Positions 5,560-49,058 of a stretch of 51,523 nucleotides of DNA are shown piece by piece. The stretch covers positions 2,259-53,781 of the forward strand of contig PLMQ01000030.1 of the NCBI GenBank assembly GCA_003142535.1, written 5' to 3'. The translations under genes and the position numbers were made by a program. The stretch is from Syntrophaceae bacterium. GTDB taxonomy: Bacteria > Desulfobacterota > Syntrophia > Syntrophales > Smithellaceae. Position 1 is the first letter of the stretch; each line of letters opens with the position of its first letter. The notes beneath the pieces were generated by a model that was not told the origin of the DNA, did not search any database, and worked only from the letters and a program-made list of their open reading frames with translations.

Positions 5560-6090
5560 CTAAATTAATTTTTTAAATTCTTCCGCAAAAGTTTTATAAA
5601 CTCTGCTGTCGAATAAAATATGCCGGATGACTTTGATACCGGTATTTCCCCTGGCAAAATCAATACACGTTGTCAGCGCCAGATGAGCTGCTTCGTCAAT
5701 GGGGTAGCTATAAACGCCAGTGCTTATAGCCGGAAAAGAAATACTTTGCAAATTATTTTGTAAGGCAATCTTTAAACTTTCCCGATATGCGCTTTGCAGA
5801 AGCTTTGCTTCGTTTTTTGTGCCTCCGCGATGAATTGGTCCTACTGTGTGAATAACGTATTTCGCTTTGAGGTTGCCGCCCGTAGTGATAACTGCCTGGC
5901 CTGTCGGGCAGCCGCCGATCTGGCGGCACTCCGCCATAATTGCCGGGCCCCCAGCGCGGTGAATGGCGCCGTCAACACCGGCGCCTCCGGCGAGACGTTC
6001 GTTGGCGGCATTGACTATGGCATCGGTTGATTCCTCAGTGATGTCGCCGCAGGCAAGGACTATCAATGTTTCATTTATCTTCTCTTCCAT
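5560..6090 (-). CDS. Macro domain protein (ADP-ribose / O-acetyl-ADP-ribose hydrolase-like)
   Basis: 176 residues, a single macro domain. The hallmarks are CGDITEESTDAIVNAANE at the start, the glycine-rich GGAGVDGAIHRAGG loop, GQAVITTGGNLKAKYVIHTV and FPAISTGVYSYP. These match the YmdB/MacroD-type enzymes that bind ADP-ribose and remove ADP-ribose or the acetyl group from O-acetyl-ADP-ribose. It is the downstream gene of a two-gene unit with the phosphoglycerate mutase gene: only 5 bases separate them, and its GGAGC ribosome binding site overlaps the mutase stop codon. Physiological substrate not deducible. Confidence 0.85.
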   Translation of the reverse strand: MEEKINETLIVLACGDITEESTDAIVNAANERLAGGAGVDGAIHRAGGPAIMAECRQIGGCPTGQAVITTGGNLKAKYVIHTVGPIHRGGTKNEAKLLQSAYRESLKIALQNNLQSISFPAISTGVYSYPIDEAAHLALTTCIDFARGNTGIKVIRHILFDSRVYKTFAEEFKKLI

Positions 6091-6095
6091 TGAAG

Positions 6096-7673
6096 CTACG
6101 CTCCACTTACTTTTGTTCCTTCTCCATAAATAAGCATTCGATATGTTTTTTCGATTCTATCCCAGTTCTCTTCCCTGTCCATTGACCAATAGCGGCCGAT
6201 TACCGAGACGACCTTTCCTAATTTCAGAGATATAGTTTTTTCTTCAATTTTTTTGATGTATTGCGCGCCGCTTTCCGGAATTTCTCCGCGCCTTCCCAGC
6301 ATGGAATGCATGTATAGCTCTTTAATTCCCTCCTTTTTGGCCAAATCCATCAGGCCGAAAAGATGATTAATGGAGCCATGTGAACTGAAAAAGGAGACAA
6401 TCCCGATTAGATGCAAAGGTCTCCCCGCATTTTTTGCTTTTCTCATCATGCTTAAAAAGGCATCATTGTCGAAAAAAGTATTATCGGCTATTGCCCAGTC
6501 AATCTTCAGCCGGTCGGAAAAGATTTTACGTCCGGCGCCGATATGCAAATGCCCGGCTTCGGAATTGCCCACGGTGCCTTCCGGCAGACCGACTGCTTCT
6601 CCTGCTGCGTCAAGCTCAGCCATTGGGTGGTTTTTGATAAGATTGTCCATAACCGGTGTGCGGGAGCGGGTAATAAGATTTACTTTCACATTCTCATTGA
6701 GTCCCCAGCCGTCAAGAATTATCAGGAGCAATCTTTTTGCCGGTGCGAAGGAGGTATCTTCAATAAGCGATGAGCCGGTCATCAAACGAGGCGCTTTTAA
6801 TCCCAGAATTTTTAAAACAGTGGGCGCCACATCGGTAAGTTCACCTTTTTTACTGAGAGCAAGTTTTTTATCCGGATGCAGTAAAATAAAAGGGACAGGA
6901 CTGTCAGTATGACCGGTATCCACAGCGCCATCGGGATAAAACCATTTTTCCACAGTACCGTGATCGGCAGTAACGATAACGGGCATACCTTCTTTTTGCG
7001 CCGCTTCAATAACGATGCCGGTGTGTTTATCAACTACCTCTATGGCACGGATTACCGCTGCTTCATTCTCAATATGCCCCACAACATCCACATTGGGAAA
7101 ATTAACAACGATGAAGTTACAATCAGAGTCATGAATTTTATCAACTGTTGCCGCTGATATTTTCTCAATGGACATTTCCGGAGCTTCGTCAAATAGTGCA
7201 ACGTCTTTACGTGTGGGTACAACGATTCGTTCTTCACCCGGAAGAAGTTCCATTTTTTTCCCATTGAAGAAAAAACCTACATGCACTGCTTTTTCTGCTT
7301 CGGTAATTTTTGCCTGCCTAAGATTATGGCTGGAAATAATATCGCTTAACGTGTCGTGCAATGTTTCTTCCGGCGGGAAAGCAACCTGGGCTTTGAGCCC
7401 TTTTTGATATTCAATCATGGTGGCAAAATTCAGGTCGAGACCATCACTGACAGGAAACTCCGAAAAATTATTTTCGGTCAGGCTGCGGGTTAACTCAATT
7501 TCTCTTTCTCCCCTGATATTATAAAAGATGACGGAATCGCCACTTTTTATCCGTCCCACTGGTTTATCCATCATATCTGTTAAAACCAGAGGCAAAAGGA
7601 TTTCGTCTTCCTGGCCGTCTTTATAGGCTCTGCGGACAGAATCCGACATGGGGAAATTGGAAGCTGGCATCAT
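6096..7673 (-). CDS. gpmI: Circularly permuted 2,3-bisphosphoglycerate-independent phosphoglycerate mutase
   Basis: 525 residues, close to the usual 510-515 of iPGM, but the halves are exchanged. Residues 15-304 match the normal C-terminal half: SGDSVIFYNIRGER, EAEKAVHVGFFFNG, NVDVVGH, VTADHG, DTGHT and the terminal MTGSSL. Residues 313-520 match the normal N-terminal half: LLIILDGWGL, GNSEAGHLHIGAGR, SSHGSINHL, GRYWSMDREENWDR and YGEG. Expected metal ligands and nucleophile are all kept: Asp321, Ser371, Asp196, His200, Asp237, His238, His255. Substrate-domain residues kept are His432, Arg494, Arg500, Arg54, Arg57 and Lys128. The usual GRD (Arg153/Asp154) reads GRRG, so Asp154 is replaced by Gly. 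It would interconvert 3- and 2-phosphoglycerate if active. The start is uncertain (ATGs at 7673, 7670 and 7649, none with a good ribosome binding site). Confidence 0.85.
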   Translation of the reverse strand: MMPASNFPMSDSVRRAYKDGQEDEILLPLVLTDMMDKPVGRIKSGDSVIFYNIRGEREIELTRSLTENNFSEFPVSDGLDLNFATMIEYQKGLKAQVAFPPEETLHDTLSDIISSHNLRQAKITEAEKAVHVGFFFNGKKMELLPGEERIVVPTRKDVALFDEAPEMSIEKISAATVDKIHDSDCNFIVVNFPNVDVVGHIENEAAVIRAIEVVDKHTGIVIEAAQKEGMPVIVTADHGTVEKWFYPDGAVDTGHTDSPVPFILLHPDKKLALSKKGELTDVAPTVLKILGLKAPRLMTGSSLIEDTSFAPAKRLLLIILDGWGLNENVKVNLITRSRTPVMDNLIKNHPMAELDAAGEAVGLPEGTVGNSEAGHLHIGAGRKIFSDRLKIDWAIADNTFFDNDAFLSMMRKAKNAGRPLHLIGIVSFFSSHGSINHLFGLMDLAKKEGIKELYMHSMLGRRGEIPESGAQYIKKIEEKTISLKLGKVVSVIGRYWSMDREENWDRIEKTYRMLIYGEGTKVSGA

Positions 7674-7782: not shown

Positions 7783-8010
7783 TTGAAAATTAAGAGGTTA
7801 AATGATAGAGACTCAATCCAGTCATTTCCGCAGGGGAAGCAGGTTGTGTCAGTGCCGCAATCGAGAAAAGAAGAAAGTCATCATAATTTATACGAAGATC
7901 TGTTAAAGGAGCGGGCAGCGGTATTGAGCCGCGCTGGCTACGCGGTGGAAGATGCCATTGATGAGTTGGCCAAAATAGACCGGATGATTAAGAAAAAAAC
8001 AATGAACTGA
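7783..8010 (+). CDS. Hypothetical small protein
   Basis: 75 residues from a TTG start; no ATG is available upstream in frame and the ribosome binding site is weak (GGG only), so the start is uncertain. The C-terminal half (NLYEDLLKERAAVLSRAGYA then VEDAIDELAKIDRMIKKK) is predicted helical and charged. Not recognised. It sits 5' of a broken small frame and pcm on the same strand and may be cotranscribed with them. Confidence 0.4.
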   Translation: MKIKRLNDRDSIQSFPQGKQVVSVPQSRKEESHHNLYEDLLKERAAVLSRAGYAVEDAIDELAKIDRMIKKKTMN

Positions 8011-44577: not shown

Positions 44578-47500
44578 TTAGTGAATTATCTTCCTATCAA
44601 TAACTACGGGTTGAACGCCCTCCCGCTCCACCATCGTATTTACATCCGGGTTGTCTCTGAAACGCAGAACGTTCAGCATAAAAATTTCCAGTTTGTTGAG
44701 TACATTGGGGGGCAGAAGATTGCCGTCAATTTCAATGGAAATCATCGGATATTTACGCTCCCGGGCCCAGGGAGTAAACAAACCTTCAATGACGCGGCCT
44801 ATAAGACAGGCGAAGGGGGATATGTTGACAATGCCGGAATATCCATCCATCATTGCCGTTGCCGCCACTCCGCTGGAGATGCTTATTTCCGAATAAAGTT
44901 CATGGCTTACAAAATGCTTTTCGGTATTTTTCATAATTTCGTTTATATCGTGCGGAGTTTTCGGAATCAGGTTTGTGGAACCAAGAGTATCACTGACCTT
45001 TTTTGCAACATTATGTTTGTATGCCTGTTCAATATTCCAATTAATCAGGTCCATAAACTCTCCGGCGAATACCCGGCGATACCAGGGAATTAATTTCAAT
45101 TTCTTTTTCAGTTCATATTTCCGGACAAAATCGCAATAATATATCCACTCAGCGACATTCGATACCTTACCGATTATTCCGCGCCGGCTGAAATGGTCAA
45201 TCAGTTCATCCACGGCAAAGTCGTCACGCCGGACATAAATTTCACCGACGATGAGCACCTTGGAACAATCTTCCATCCTTTTTTTCAGCGGGATTAGCGC
45301 AATCTCATCTGCTATTTCTTGTAAAACAGGCAGCACCTGTTTCACATCAGTTTCGGCGACACTGATCATTTTATGCCAGAGCTTATCGTATATTCCCATA
45401 GCACGTACAGGATCGGCCGCGCATGTTCTCAGCGATGTTTCCACATCTTTCATGTAATCGCCGATAACAACTGCCCACCAGGCATTTTTGGAAAATTCTG
45501 CGCCCAGTTCATTATAAGAATTATCCGAATCCATGGTGAAGACAACAACGTTATCCAGGCGCAAATCCTTGAACAGGTTTTCATAAAAAACAAAATACTG
45601 GCCGGTGCGGCAGGGGCCGGTAGTTGTCGGAACAAACAGCAGATAAATTTCGTCTTTGCGGTATTTCTCCGAGGCAAGATACTTCAGGACGCTTCCCAGA
45701 ACAAGATGAGAAGGAACGCACTCTTTGCCGGAGGCATGATTCCGCGCCAGCTGGAGAGTGTGAATATCCGGAACGGGCATTGCTTCCGCATTGACGCCGA
45801 AGCCTCTGATAGTCGCGGCAATCAGTTCTACGGAAAGCCTTCCCATGCTGGAAAGCAGCAGCTTGACCCGCGGATTGTTGCGAATGGGAATCTTTTCATT
45901 GGTTATATTATTTTTTATATAAATATCTTCGCCCTTGCTGTTGACGAATCTCAGGCCGTTATCATATCTCTGTTGCTTGATATCGGTGAATTTAGATCTA
46001 TATCCTTCAATAATATCAAGAAATGCTTCAACGCGTGTATCTACGCCGGCATCGGCAGTGTGCGAATCCAGTTCCAGAATCAGGAAGGGTTTGGTGCCCA
46101 TCATCCACTTGAGATAATGCAGCATGAAAGAATCAGGCGCGCAGGAAAAATTTGATATATAAGTGACAAAAATATTATCCTCGTCTTTGAGAAGCATACC
46201 CGCCTTCATGTCCTGCTGGCCGTAATACCAGTACATATTAGGATAGATGGGTTTATCCGCAAAAGGCAAAATATCAAAAGGAATAACTGAGAACCCTCTG
46301 GTGGAGAATTTACGGGGGATGCCCATATTGGCATCGGTCGTGAAAGCATTATAAGGACGTCCTAAGAGGGCAATGACCGACCGTTTGGATTTTCGGGCTT
46401 CGGCCAGCGCCATTTTTCCTAACTCATCGGCCTTAGCAAAATATTCCATCTGCATTTTGTAAGCGATGTCAAATGCTTTTCTGGCTTCTCTTTCCGGGAA
46501 GCCAAGCTTAACTCCCATTTCGATAAAAGATTCGCTGGCCTTTTCCACGCCGTACATGAAGCTAACAATAGGGGTTAAGTATTTATCTTCAGGAATTTCC
46601 GGGAATGCTTTTTTTATATAATAGGGAAGACCCTGCGTAATCGGGCAGAAGTTTGCCGGAGAGTCCTTTTCATAACTTTCCATGTCTTTAAAATGAGGCA
46701 GGAAGATGTAATCCAGATTGCGGTCGAAGATATCCTGAACAGCACCGTGGGCAATTTCCGCCGGATAACAATAGCTGCTTTCGACGCGGGCTGTTCCCTC
46801 ATGGGATATATTTCGAGAAAGAGAAGTTTCGACTCCTAAAGAGTGGAAAAACCAGGAATAAAGGGGCCAGAGCGTATAGATGGAAAAGCAGCGCGGTATG
46901 CCGACAACATATTCCTTTCTCTTTATCAGATCGTGGGGATTAGGGGCGCATACATTAAAAAGCAAATCGTTGCGCTGTTCTATGTAGTCAAATACCTCGG
47001 TTTCATTGAAGGTCTTTTTCTTGCGGATATTGGCGTATTTATTACATCTGCCGCCGAACATATATTTGTTATTATTCACCTGGAGAACGCGGATCGGGCA
47101 GTAGTTGTCGCAGGCTTTACATTGGAATTCTTTTTCATAGATAATTTCGGTAGCAAGAATCTTATCAATATCGTAGGAAGCTTTGGTCAAAAAGCCGTCA
47201 TTTAATTTCTGCTTGGCCAGTATGCCCACGCCAAAACAACCCATCAGTTCAGGATCAGGCGGAACGAGTATGTCTTTATTTAGCAGCATGGCAAAAGCAA
47301 GCGGTATGGCTTTGTTTTTCGCCACGCCGCCCTGCAGGACAATTTTATTGCCGATTGTTCTGTTGCCGACAACCCGGTTTAAATAATTGGAAACGATGGA
47401 TGTGACAATTCCGGCAGTGATGTCTTCACGGGAGGCGCCCTGTTGAATAGCATTGCGAATATCGGAATTGATAAAAGCGGAACAGTGTTCGCCGAACTTC

Positions 47501-48888
47501 AGCGGTTCTTTAGCCTTAATGGCAATATCGCCGATTTCCCAGGCATTGGCGATGTTCAAATCGCCCTGAGCCGATTCTTCCAGAAAGGAGCCCGTACCCG
47601 CAGAACAAGCTTCATTCATGGCATAGTCAATCGGCACTTTATTTTTCAGGAAAACATATTTGGCGTCCTGTCCGCCGATTTCGAAAATTGTGTCAATATC
47701 ATCTTTATAAAAAGTGGTGCCGACGGCATGGGCGATAATTTCATTATAAACAGCCGGAGTTTCCAGAAACACGCCCAAAATTTCTCTGGATGAGCCGGTT
47801 GTTGAGGCTAAACTTATACTGATCTGGCCATCACCGATATCTTCCTTAATTTGTTTTTTCATTTCCACGAAACAGTTCTTTAGTGCCGCCACCGGGTCGC
47901 CGTGGGTGCGTCCATAGAATGATGCTGTGATCTCATCTGTTTCTATATCTATCAGGCAGGCTTTCGTTGTTGTCGATCCACCATCAACGCCAAGGATATA
48001 TTCGCGGCCGGCAATAACTTTTCCTTTTTTTGAAGGGAGATAAGTTACTCTTGTTTCGGCGGTATTCAAATTTTTAAAGCGCTTGAACTGAACCTTACCT
48101 GTCTTAAAAAGCTTATTGATCGGTGGTAGAACACTACCGGAATTTTTTGCCAGAAGAGCCGCTCCATATGCTTCAAAATATGGTGCCTGCGGGGGAACAA
48201 TAAATTCGATACCCGGCATTCTCTCCCGGATAAAGCGCAGAATATATTGATTCAGCGTGACGCCGCCAACCAGAAGTACCTTGCCTTTGGAGATTCTCGC
48301 CCTTTTCAAAAAATCAATGACTTTTGTTGCCATTACATCACTGAGCGACAAAACGATATCGCCTTTTTGCGCCTCACCTTTATTCAAACGGTGTGTGCAG
48401 TCGCTTTTCATGAAAACAGAACATCGCGAAGAAAGCTTCATTACACAGCTATGTTCGGGAATAGAATTGATTTCATCAATGTTCATATTCATTCTGCCCA
48501 GCTGCTGTTTGAAAAACTCGCCGGTACCGGAGGCGCATTTGTTTCCGGAAAAACTCATAATTATTTTTTTATTTTTATCTATGGTATAAACGACCAAATC
48601 CTCACCACCCAGAGAGACCAGTGCATCTATGTCATAATTCATATGCTGAAGCGCTTCTTCAATACAAATAGGTTCAATCACGCTGTTGATATTTAAAAGA
48701 CGTCTTCCTTCAGTGCCGGTGGAAAGTGCTTTAATGTCGGCAGGTATATTTTTGGACGATAATATTTTTTTGAGAGTGTAAAGAAAATTTCCTTCATGCG
48801 GTTCCACTTCGCTCCAGAGAATGCTGTCACCCTCCAGCATGGTCACTTTAACATTGGATGAACCGATATTAATTCCTAAACTGTGCAT
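44578..48888 (-). CDS. Giant acyl-CoA dehydratase activase (tandem BadF/HgdC ATPases + DUF2229 + dehydratase-like domain)
   Basis: 1436 residues from ATG 48888, preceded by TTGGAGG. Two complete ASKHA ATPase units: residues 1-250 (GINIGSSNVKV, VSLGGEDLVV, CASGTGEFF with Cys118, and RCSVF with Cys156) and 296-560 (GVDGGSTTTKACL, EIGGQDAKY, CSAGTGSFLEE with Cys428, and HCSAF with Cys469). In HgdC the equivalent two cysteines of each subunit hold a shared 4Fe-4S cluster, so here a pseudo-dimer could form within one chain. A four-Cys cluster (590, 593, 597, 615) leads into a DUF2229 region, then a 2-hydroxyacyl-CoA-dehydratase-like domain. Such proteins use ATP to push an electron to a low potential. 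The partner dehydratase or reductase is not in the window. Confidence 0.85.
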   Translation of the reverse strand: MHSLGINIGSSNVKVTMLEGDSILWSEVEPHEGNFLYTLKKILSSKNIPADIKALSTGTEGRRLLNINSVIEPICIEEALQHMNYDIDALVSLGGEDLVVYTIDKNKKIIMSFSGNKCASGTGEFFKQQLGRMNMNIDEINSIPEHSCVMKLSSRCSVFMKSDCTHRLNKGEAQKGDIVLSLSDVMATKVIDFLKRARISKGKVLLVGGVTLNQYILRFIRERMPGIEFIVPPQAPYFEAYGAALLAKNSGSVLPPINKLFKTGKVQFKRFKNLNTAETRVTYLPSKKGKVIAGREYILGVDGGSTTTKACLIDIETDEITASFYGRTHGDPVAALKNCFVEMKKQIKEDIGDGQISISLASTTGSSREILGVFLETPAVYNEIIAHAVGTTFYKDDIDTIFEIGGQDAKYVFLKNKVPIDYAMNEACSAGTGSFLEESAQGDLNIANAWEIGDIAIKAKEPLKFGEHCSAFINSDIRNAIQQGASREDITAGIVTSIVSNYLNRVVGNRTIGNKIVLQGGVAKNKAIPLAFAMLLNKDILVPPDPELMGCFGVGILAKQKLNDGFLTKASYDIDKILATEIIYEKEFQCKACDNYCPIRVLQVNNNKYMFGGRCNKYANIRKKKTFNETEVFDYIEQRNDLLFNVCAPNPHDLIKRKEYVVGIPRCFSIYTLWPLYSWFFHSLGVETSLSRNISHEGTARVESSYCYPAEIAHGAVQDIFDRNLDYIFLPHFKDMESYEKDSPANFCPITQGLPYYIKKAFPEIPEDKYLTPIVSFMYGVEKASESFIEMGVKLGFPEREARKAFDIAYKMQMEYFAKADELGKMALAEARKSKRSVIALLGRPYNAFTTDANMGIPRKFSTRGFSVIPFDILPFADKPIYPNMYWYYGQQDMKAGMLLKDEDNIFVTYISNFSCAPDSFMLHYLKWMMGTKPFLILELDSHTADAGVDTRVEAFLDIIEGYRSKFTDIKQQRYDNGLRFVNSKGEDIYIKNNITNEKIPIRNNPRVKLLLSSMGRLSVELIAATIRGFGVNAEAMPVPDIHTLQLARNHASGKECVPSHLVLGSVLKYLASEKYRKDEIYLLFVPTTTGPCRTGQYFVFYENLFKDLRLDNVVVFTMDSDNSYNELGAEFSKNAWWAVVIGDYMKDVETSLRTCAADPVRAMGIYDKLWHKMISVAETDVKQVLPVLQEIADEIALIPLKKRMEDCSKVLIVGEIYVRRDDFAVDELIDHFSRRGIIGKVSNVAEWIYYCDFVRKYELKKKLKLIPWYRRVFAGEFMDLINWNIEQAYKHNVAKKVSDTLGSTNLIPKTPHDINEIMKNTEKHFVSHELYSEISISSGVAATAMMDGYSGIVNISPFACLIGRVIEGLFTPWARERKYPMISIEIDGNLLPPNVLNKLEIFMLNVLRFRDNPDVNTMVEREGVQPVVIDRKIIH

Positions 48889-49058
48889 TAATGAAACCTC
48901 CAAACAATAAAAAAGTATGACAAAAAACCAATAGTTGATAATACGATTGAGTTTCTACGTCAAGCATCATATAAAAATATTTTAATTTTGGGATTGTTTT
49001 ATCAGGTAAATTAATAACTGAGGGCAATTGCAAATTATAATAAGCTGTTGAAAGAATT

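Follow-up and report, generated by a model that had tools for sequence, protein, structure and literature searches.

Cofactor-independent phosphoglycerate mutase (iPGM) is a glycolytic enzyme that interconverts 3- and 2-phosphoglycerate without 2,3-bisphosphoglycerate. In iPGM, as established for the Geobacillus stearothermophilus enzyme (1ejj), the transferase domain is an insert within the phosphatase domain; the domain limits presumably lie at about residues 76/77 and 310/311. Among the enzymes of central metabolism, natural circular permutants are a rarity; the usual route to them is a tandem duplication followed by loss of the outer halves. Nine residues contact the substrate in the Bacillus enzyme, namely, S62, H123, R153, D154, R185, R191, R261, R264, and K336 (PMC3886921). 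A 2010 survey of bacterial mutases brought up Syntrophus aciditrophicus solely on account of three archaeal-type genes; the word permutation is absent from the main text of the survey (PMC2964296). The initial annotation of the locus presented here knew of no described circular permutant of iPGM; likewise, we found no report of a permuted iPGM in the searchable literature.

Swapped halves in a single reading frame

The window is the whole stretch of DNA that we analyzed (51,523 nucleotides from a Syntrophaceae bacterium). An open reading frame on its minus strand (positions 6096 to 7673) encodes 525 amino acids plus a stop codon, in a single frame without internal stops. In phmmer searches, residues 12 to 304 of the protein matched residues 219 to 509 of 1ejj (191.2 bits), and residues 313 to 520 matched residues 4 to 211 (187.6 bits). 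The E value was about 1e-112, which indicated that the likeness was not due to chance. Pfam placed Metalloenzyme at residues 99 to 293 and iPGM_N at residues 391 to 521. The protein passed the TIGR01307 equivalog model with 478 bits in two stretches (cut-off, 330.65 bits) and failed the apgM model TIGR00306 with 34.6 bits (cut-off, 320). As the initial annotation had proposed, the C-terminal half of iPGM comes first and the N-terminal half second; both are complete and exchanged, and nothing substantial is missing relative to 1ejj. The two ends of the protein were also found where they had been predicted, at neighboring positions of the normal enzyme (1ejj about 219 and 211), and they flank a single transferase-domain loop (1ejj 211 to 219). 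The same order was kept in relatives, as described below. For practical purposes, it is certain that the frame encodes a circular permutant of iPGM.

All segments of the protein are encoded on the minus strand. The chain begins with the C-terminal half of the transferase domain (residues 1 to 101; positions 7371 to 7673; 1ejj about 213 to 310), which carries R54 and R57 (R261 and R264 in 1ejj). This is followed by a large part of the phosphatase domain (residues 102 to 305; positions 6759 to 7370; 1ejj 311 to 509) with K128, D196, H200, D237, H238, and H255. A short linker (residues ~306 to 313; positions 6735 to 6758) bridges the former C and N termini and leads to the N-terminal part of the phosphatase domain (residues 314 to 385; positions 6519 to 6734; 1ejj 5 to 76), which contains D321 and the nucleophile S371. 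The chain ends with the N-terminal transferase half (residues 386 to 525; positions 6099 to 6518; 1ejj 77 to 211), where H432, R462, G463, E464, R494, and R500 are located. The order is transferase-phosphatase-transferase, whereas that of ordinary iPGM is phosphatase-transferase-phosphatase. Because the new termini lie in a transferase loop and the old termini are joined, the phosphatase domain runs without a break and is enclosed by the transferase domain, which is the reverse of the normal arrangement. The length of the linker differs between permuted relatives; in one permuted homologue (L053:4668-6722 / L079:1168-3222), it has an insert of ~48 residues.

An AlphaFold model of the permuted protein, built with a 59-sequence alignment, had a pLDDT of 90.1 and a pTM of 0.85. 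Using aligners that keep chain order, residues 7 to 307 of the model superposed on residues 214 to 505 of the Staphylococcus aureus iPGM 4nwj (291 residues, 1.9 Å, Z of 22). Residues 313 to 525 were not superposed together with residues 7 to 307 because such aligners keep chain order, and this is expected for a permutant. The second half modeled alone reached a pLDDT of 55 and was left out of use.

Distribution, descent, and gene neighborhood

The initial annotation had suggested searching genomes for the same order of halves, and single-frame genes of the permuted order were indeed found in Syntrophales, in two more Desulfobacterota families (f40 and f22), and in the phylum WOR-3. By our own count in whole-genome searches, 51 of the 108 Syntrophales genomes of at least 90% completeness carried a complete permuted copy. 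Among close and order-level relatives, the gene was present, whole or as a piece at a contig end, in 31 of 59, and it was present in 7 of the 147 WOR-3 genomes. An independent sequence collection yielded 39 loci, chiefly from Syntrophaceae and Smithellaceae MAGs.

The host genome is a draft of 70 contigs, and an assembly or binning step might have put a normal gene together with its halves exchanged. This explanation was ruled out by the occurrence of the same order in many independent genomes, and we regard its probability as negligible: the same junction region is present in dozens of independent assemblies, among them one with all of its 3,179,300 bases in a single contig (G453, from the genus group of Syntrophus MAGs), and the permuted proteins form one clade with residues of its own.

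The permuted proteins have a single origin. We restored 69 distinct permuted proteins to the normal order and aligned them with normal-order iPGMs. In the resulting tree, the permuted proteins formed one clade (support, 100) with a stem of ~1.1 to 1.2 changes per site; both the phylum's classical iPGMs and a divergent normal-order iPGM lay outside this clade. The WOR-3, f40, f22, and Syntrophales proteins formed separate groups within the clade. The tree resolved the branching between these groups poorly and hence did not distinguish vertical descent from transfer. Close pairs of permuted genes had dN/dS values of 0.08 to 0.23, which indicated purifying selection. We read the family as the product of one ancient permutation event. 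A tandem duplication with loss of the outer halves, the route named in the initial annotation, fits the gene and is the standard one, but no intermediate was seen: the new pocket signature did not occur in any of the normal-order sequences aligned here, and the best normal-order matches in the phylum were ~43 to 46% identical.

Five bases downstream of the permuted gene is a macro-domain gene on the same strand (positions 5560 to 6090; Pfam PF01661), and neighbor maps showed that such a gene adjoins the permuted gene in most Syntrophales carriers and is a partner in Syntrophales only. On the plus strand, a small divergent gene (positions 7783 to 8010) encodes 75 amino acids and is homologous to a conserved small upstream gene of relatives, where it lies between the permuted mutase and pcm (49% identity over 49 amino acids). 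One relative showed weak likeness to DUF6665. The Syntrophales layout consists of the macro-domain gene after the permuted gene and, head to head with the latter, the small conserved gene and pcm, followed by a LysM/M23 gene. None of these neighbors was found near the permuted gene in f40, f22, or WOR-3, and nothing was shared there; the neighborhood is therefore a poor guide to the reaction. At positions 44578 to 48903, the minus strand of the window also encodes a 1,441-amino-acid BadF/BcrA-type CoA-enzyme activase with DUF2229, a type that is typical of activators of anaerobic 2-hydroxyacyl-CoA dehydratase or benzoyl-CoA reductase.

Active site, companion mutases, and possible reactions

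The seven metal and nucleophile residues of the phosphatase domain that the initial annotation had noted as present were all matched to 1ejj counterparts: D321, S371, D196, H200, D237, H238, and H255 correspond to D12, S62, D403, H407, D444, H445, and H462, respectively. The serine nucleophile and the six metal ligands were invariant in all 69 permuted proteins, as were eight of the nine substrate-contacting residues. The ninth, D154, was Gly in 69 of 69 (G463 here), and the next residue was an invariant Glu (E464). Several motifs had also been exchanged and fixed in the permuted family: SDGGVHS became SFFSSHGS, DGRDT became GRRGE, NFRxDRA became NIRGERE, ADHGN became ADHGT, and AHT became GHT. 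Judged from these alignments, the family has evidently kept the catalytic machine and rebuilt the rim of the pocket. The complete replacement of D154, together with the SFFSSHGS, GRRGE, and ADHGT changes, speaks against an unchanged reaction.

The permuted gene is not the sole mutase gene of the cell, a role that was ruled out by two apgM-type genes in the host. One encodes a PRK04135-type protein (573 bits), and the other encodes a PRK04200/TIGR02535-type protein (557 bits). These archaeal-type genes are located at L105:298-1524 and L106:256-1464; the annotation of L105 is ambiguous, since it passes the mutase model PRK04200 as well as TIGR02535, the model of a "proposed homoserine kinase." No other iPGM was found in the host genome, and no gpmA scored above the cut-off there. 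Some Syntrophales encode the divergent normal-order iPGM (L107, L108, L109, L110, L113, L114, and L115), which is ~35% identical to the permuted protein. In 50 relatives of at least 90% completeness, this iPGM and the PRK04135-score-class apgM were largely mutually exclusive (Fisher P of 3e-5, with kinship ignored), the apgM classes being split by score and confirmed on the host's two genes only. The permuted gene occurred with either of them. Because other mutases are present and the permuted gene is found regardless of their type, the permuted enzyme does not look like the only glycolytic mutase of the cell; it either is redundant as a mutase or has a shifted substrate.

With a probability of roughly 85%, we consider the protein to be an ancient natural iPGM permutant that has the same clamp and the same chemistry and acts on phosphoglycerate or a close phospho-hydroxy-acid; closure of the fold, activity, and substrate are the parts that we infer. 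The permutation inside the transferase loop (1ejj 211 to 219), with the old ends fused, would turn the fold topology inside out, such that the transferase domain would be assembled from both chain ends and interrupted by a continuous phosphatase domain (residues ~102 to 385). The protein would still fold into the two-domain clamp of iPGM and likely keeps the phosphoserine two-domain mechanism. In this mechanism, the phosphate would pass to Ser371 of the phosphatase domain, assisted by the two metal ions, the bound acid would be held in the transferase pocket by R54, R57, K128, R462, R494, R500, and H432, and the phosphate would then be given back to another hydroxyl. Glu464, which is beside the lost Asp154 position, is a candidate replacement carboxylate. 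Because Asp154 is Gly throughout and the pocket is fixed in a different form, the substrate is probably either phosphoglycerate or a close relative of it; we regard the choice between phosphoglycerate and a related phospho-acid as about even.

The initial annotation had taken the protein for a phosphoglycerate mutase. This is plausible, and we give slightly less than even odds to a plain mutase in which the permutation was neutral, E464 or another group replaces D154, and the cell has several redundant glycolytic or gluconeogenic mutases, this enzyme among them. The eight retained substrate residues and the score above the TIGR01307 equivalog cut-off point this way, as do a few genomes (G028 and G044) with no other clear mutase except a PRK04200/TIGR02535-type gene. 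However, the D154G and pocket changes are absolute across the 69 proteins, and nearly all carriers also encode an apgM, gpmA, or normal-order iPGM. A second normal gpmI combined with loss of conserved sites in relatives had been named beforehand as an argument against mutase function, and half of that combination was found, as a normal-order iPGM exists alongside the permuted one in some relatives (genus g6 and family f22).

A shade less probable, in our judgment, is a neofunctionalized permutant, that is, an enzyme that acts as a mutase or phosphotransferase on a different small phospho-acid in cells whose glycolytic role is covered by other mutases. The long stem, the fixation of a new pocket signature, and the presence of the gene whatever other mutase the genome encodes are in keeping with such a shift, but the residues that hold the phosphate and carboxylate (arginines, lysine, and histidine) are the same as in iPGM, and no metabolic operon suggests another substrate. 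Equally tentative is the view that the proteins are a distinct family of the metalloenzyme superfamily, with the domain nesting inverted and the pocket rebuilt for a different phospho-acid. The other mutases in the genome would be in keeping with a decaying or regulatory pseudo-enzyme, but the open frames, the invariant catalytic residues, and the low dN/dS make this reading very improbable.

Consequences and comparison with known enzymes

Databases will label the permuted family gpmI because it passes TIGR01307. The label misses both the order of the halves and the loss of D154 and is thus an annotation hazard; it may have led to errors in the metabolic pathways reconstructed for syntrophic bacteria. 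If the family has acquired a new function, then a new mutase or phosphotransferase reaction of syntrophic and WOR-3 bacteria is filed under the wrong name. The permuted iPGM exchanges the inserted and host domains and likely keeps a mechanism in which the two domains must open and close, so it offers a natural test of domain connectivity in iPGM dynamics.

Among known enzymes, apgM (TIGR00306; PRK04135 and PRK04200 types) belongs to the same metalloenzyme superfamily and has two members in the host, but it is about 400 amino acids long and has the normal order. The divergent normal-order iPGM (e.g., L107 and L115) belongs to the iPGM family and is found in the same bacterial families, at times in the same genome, and L107 passes TIGR01307. 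Unlike the permuted protein, it keeps D154 and the normal order and forms its own clade. GpmI (TIGR01307; G. stearothermophilus 1ejj/1o98 and S. aureus 4nwj) shares with the permuted protein both halves (~35 to 45% identity per half), the two-domain composition, all seven metal and nucleophile residues, and all but one of the nine substrate residues. In contrast to GpmI, the permuted protein has its halves swapped, an uninterrupted phosphatase domain that lies within the transferase domain, Gly in place of D154, and several pocket motifs replaced.
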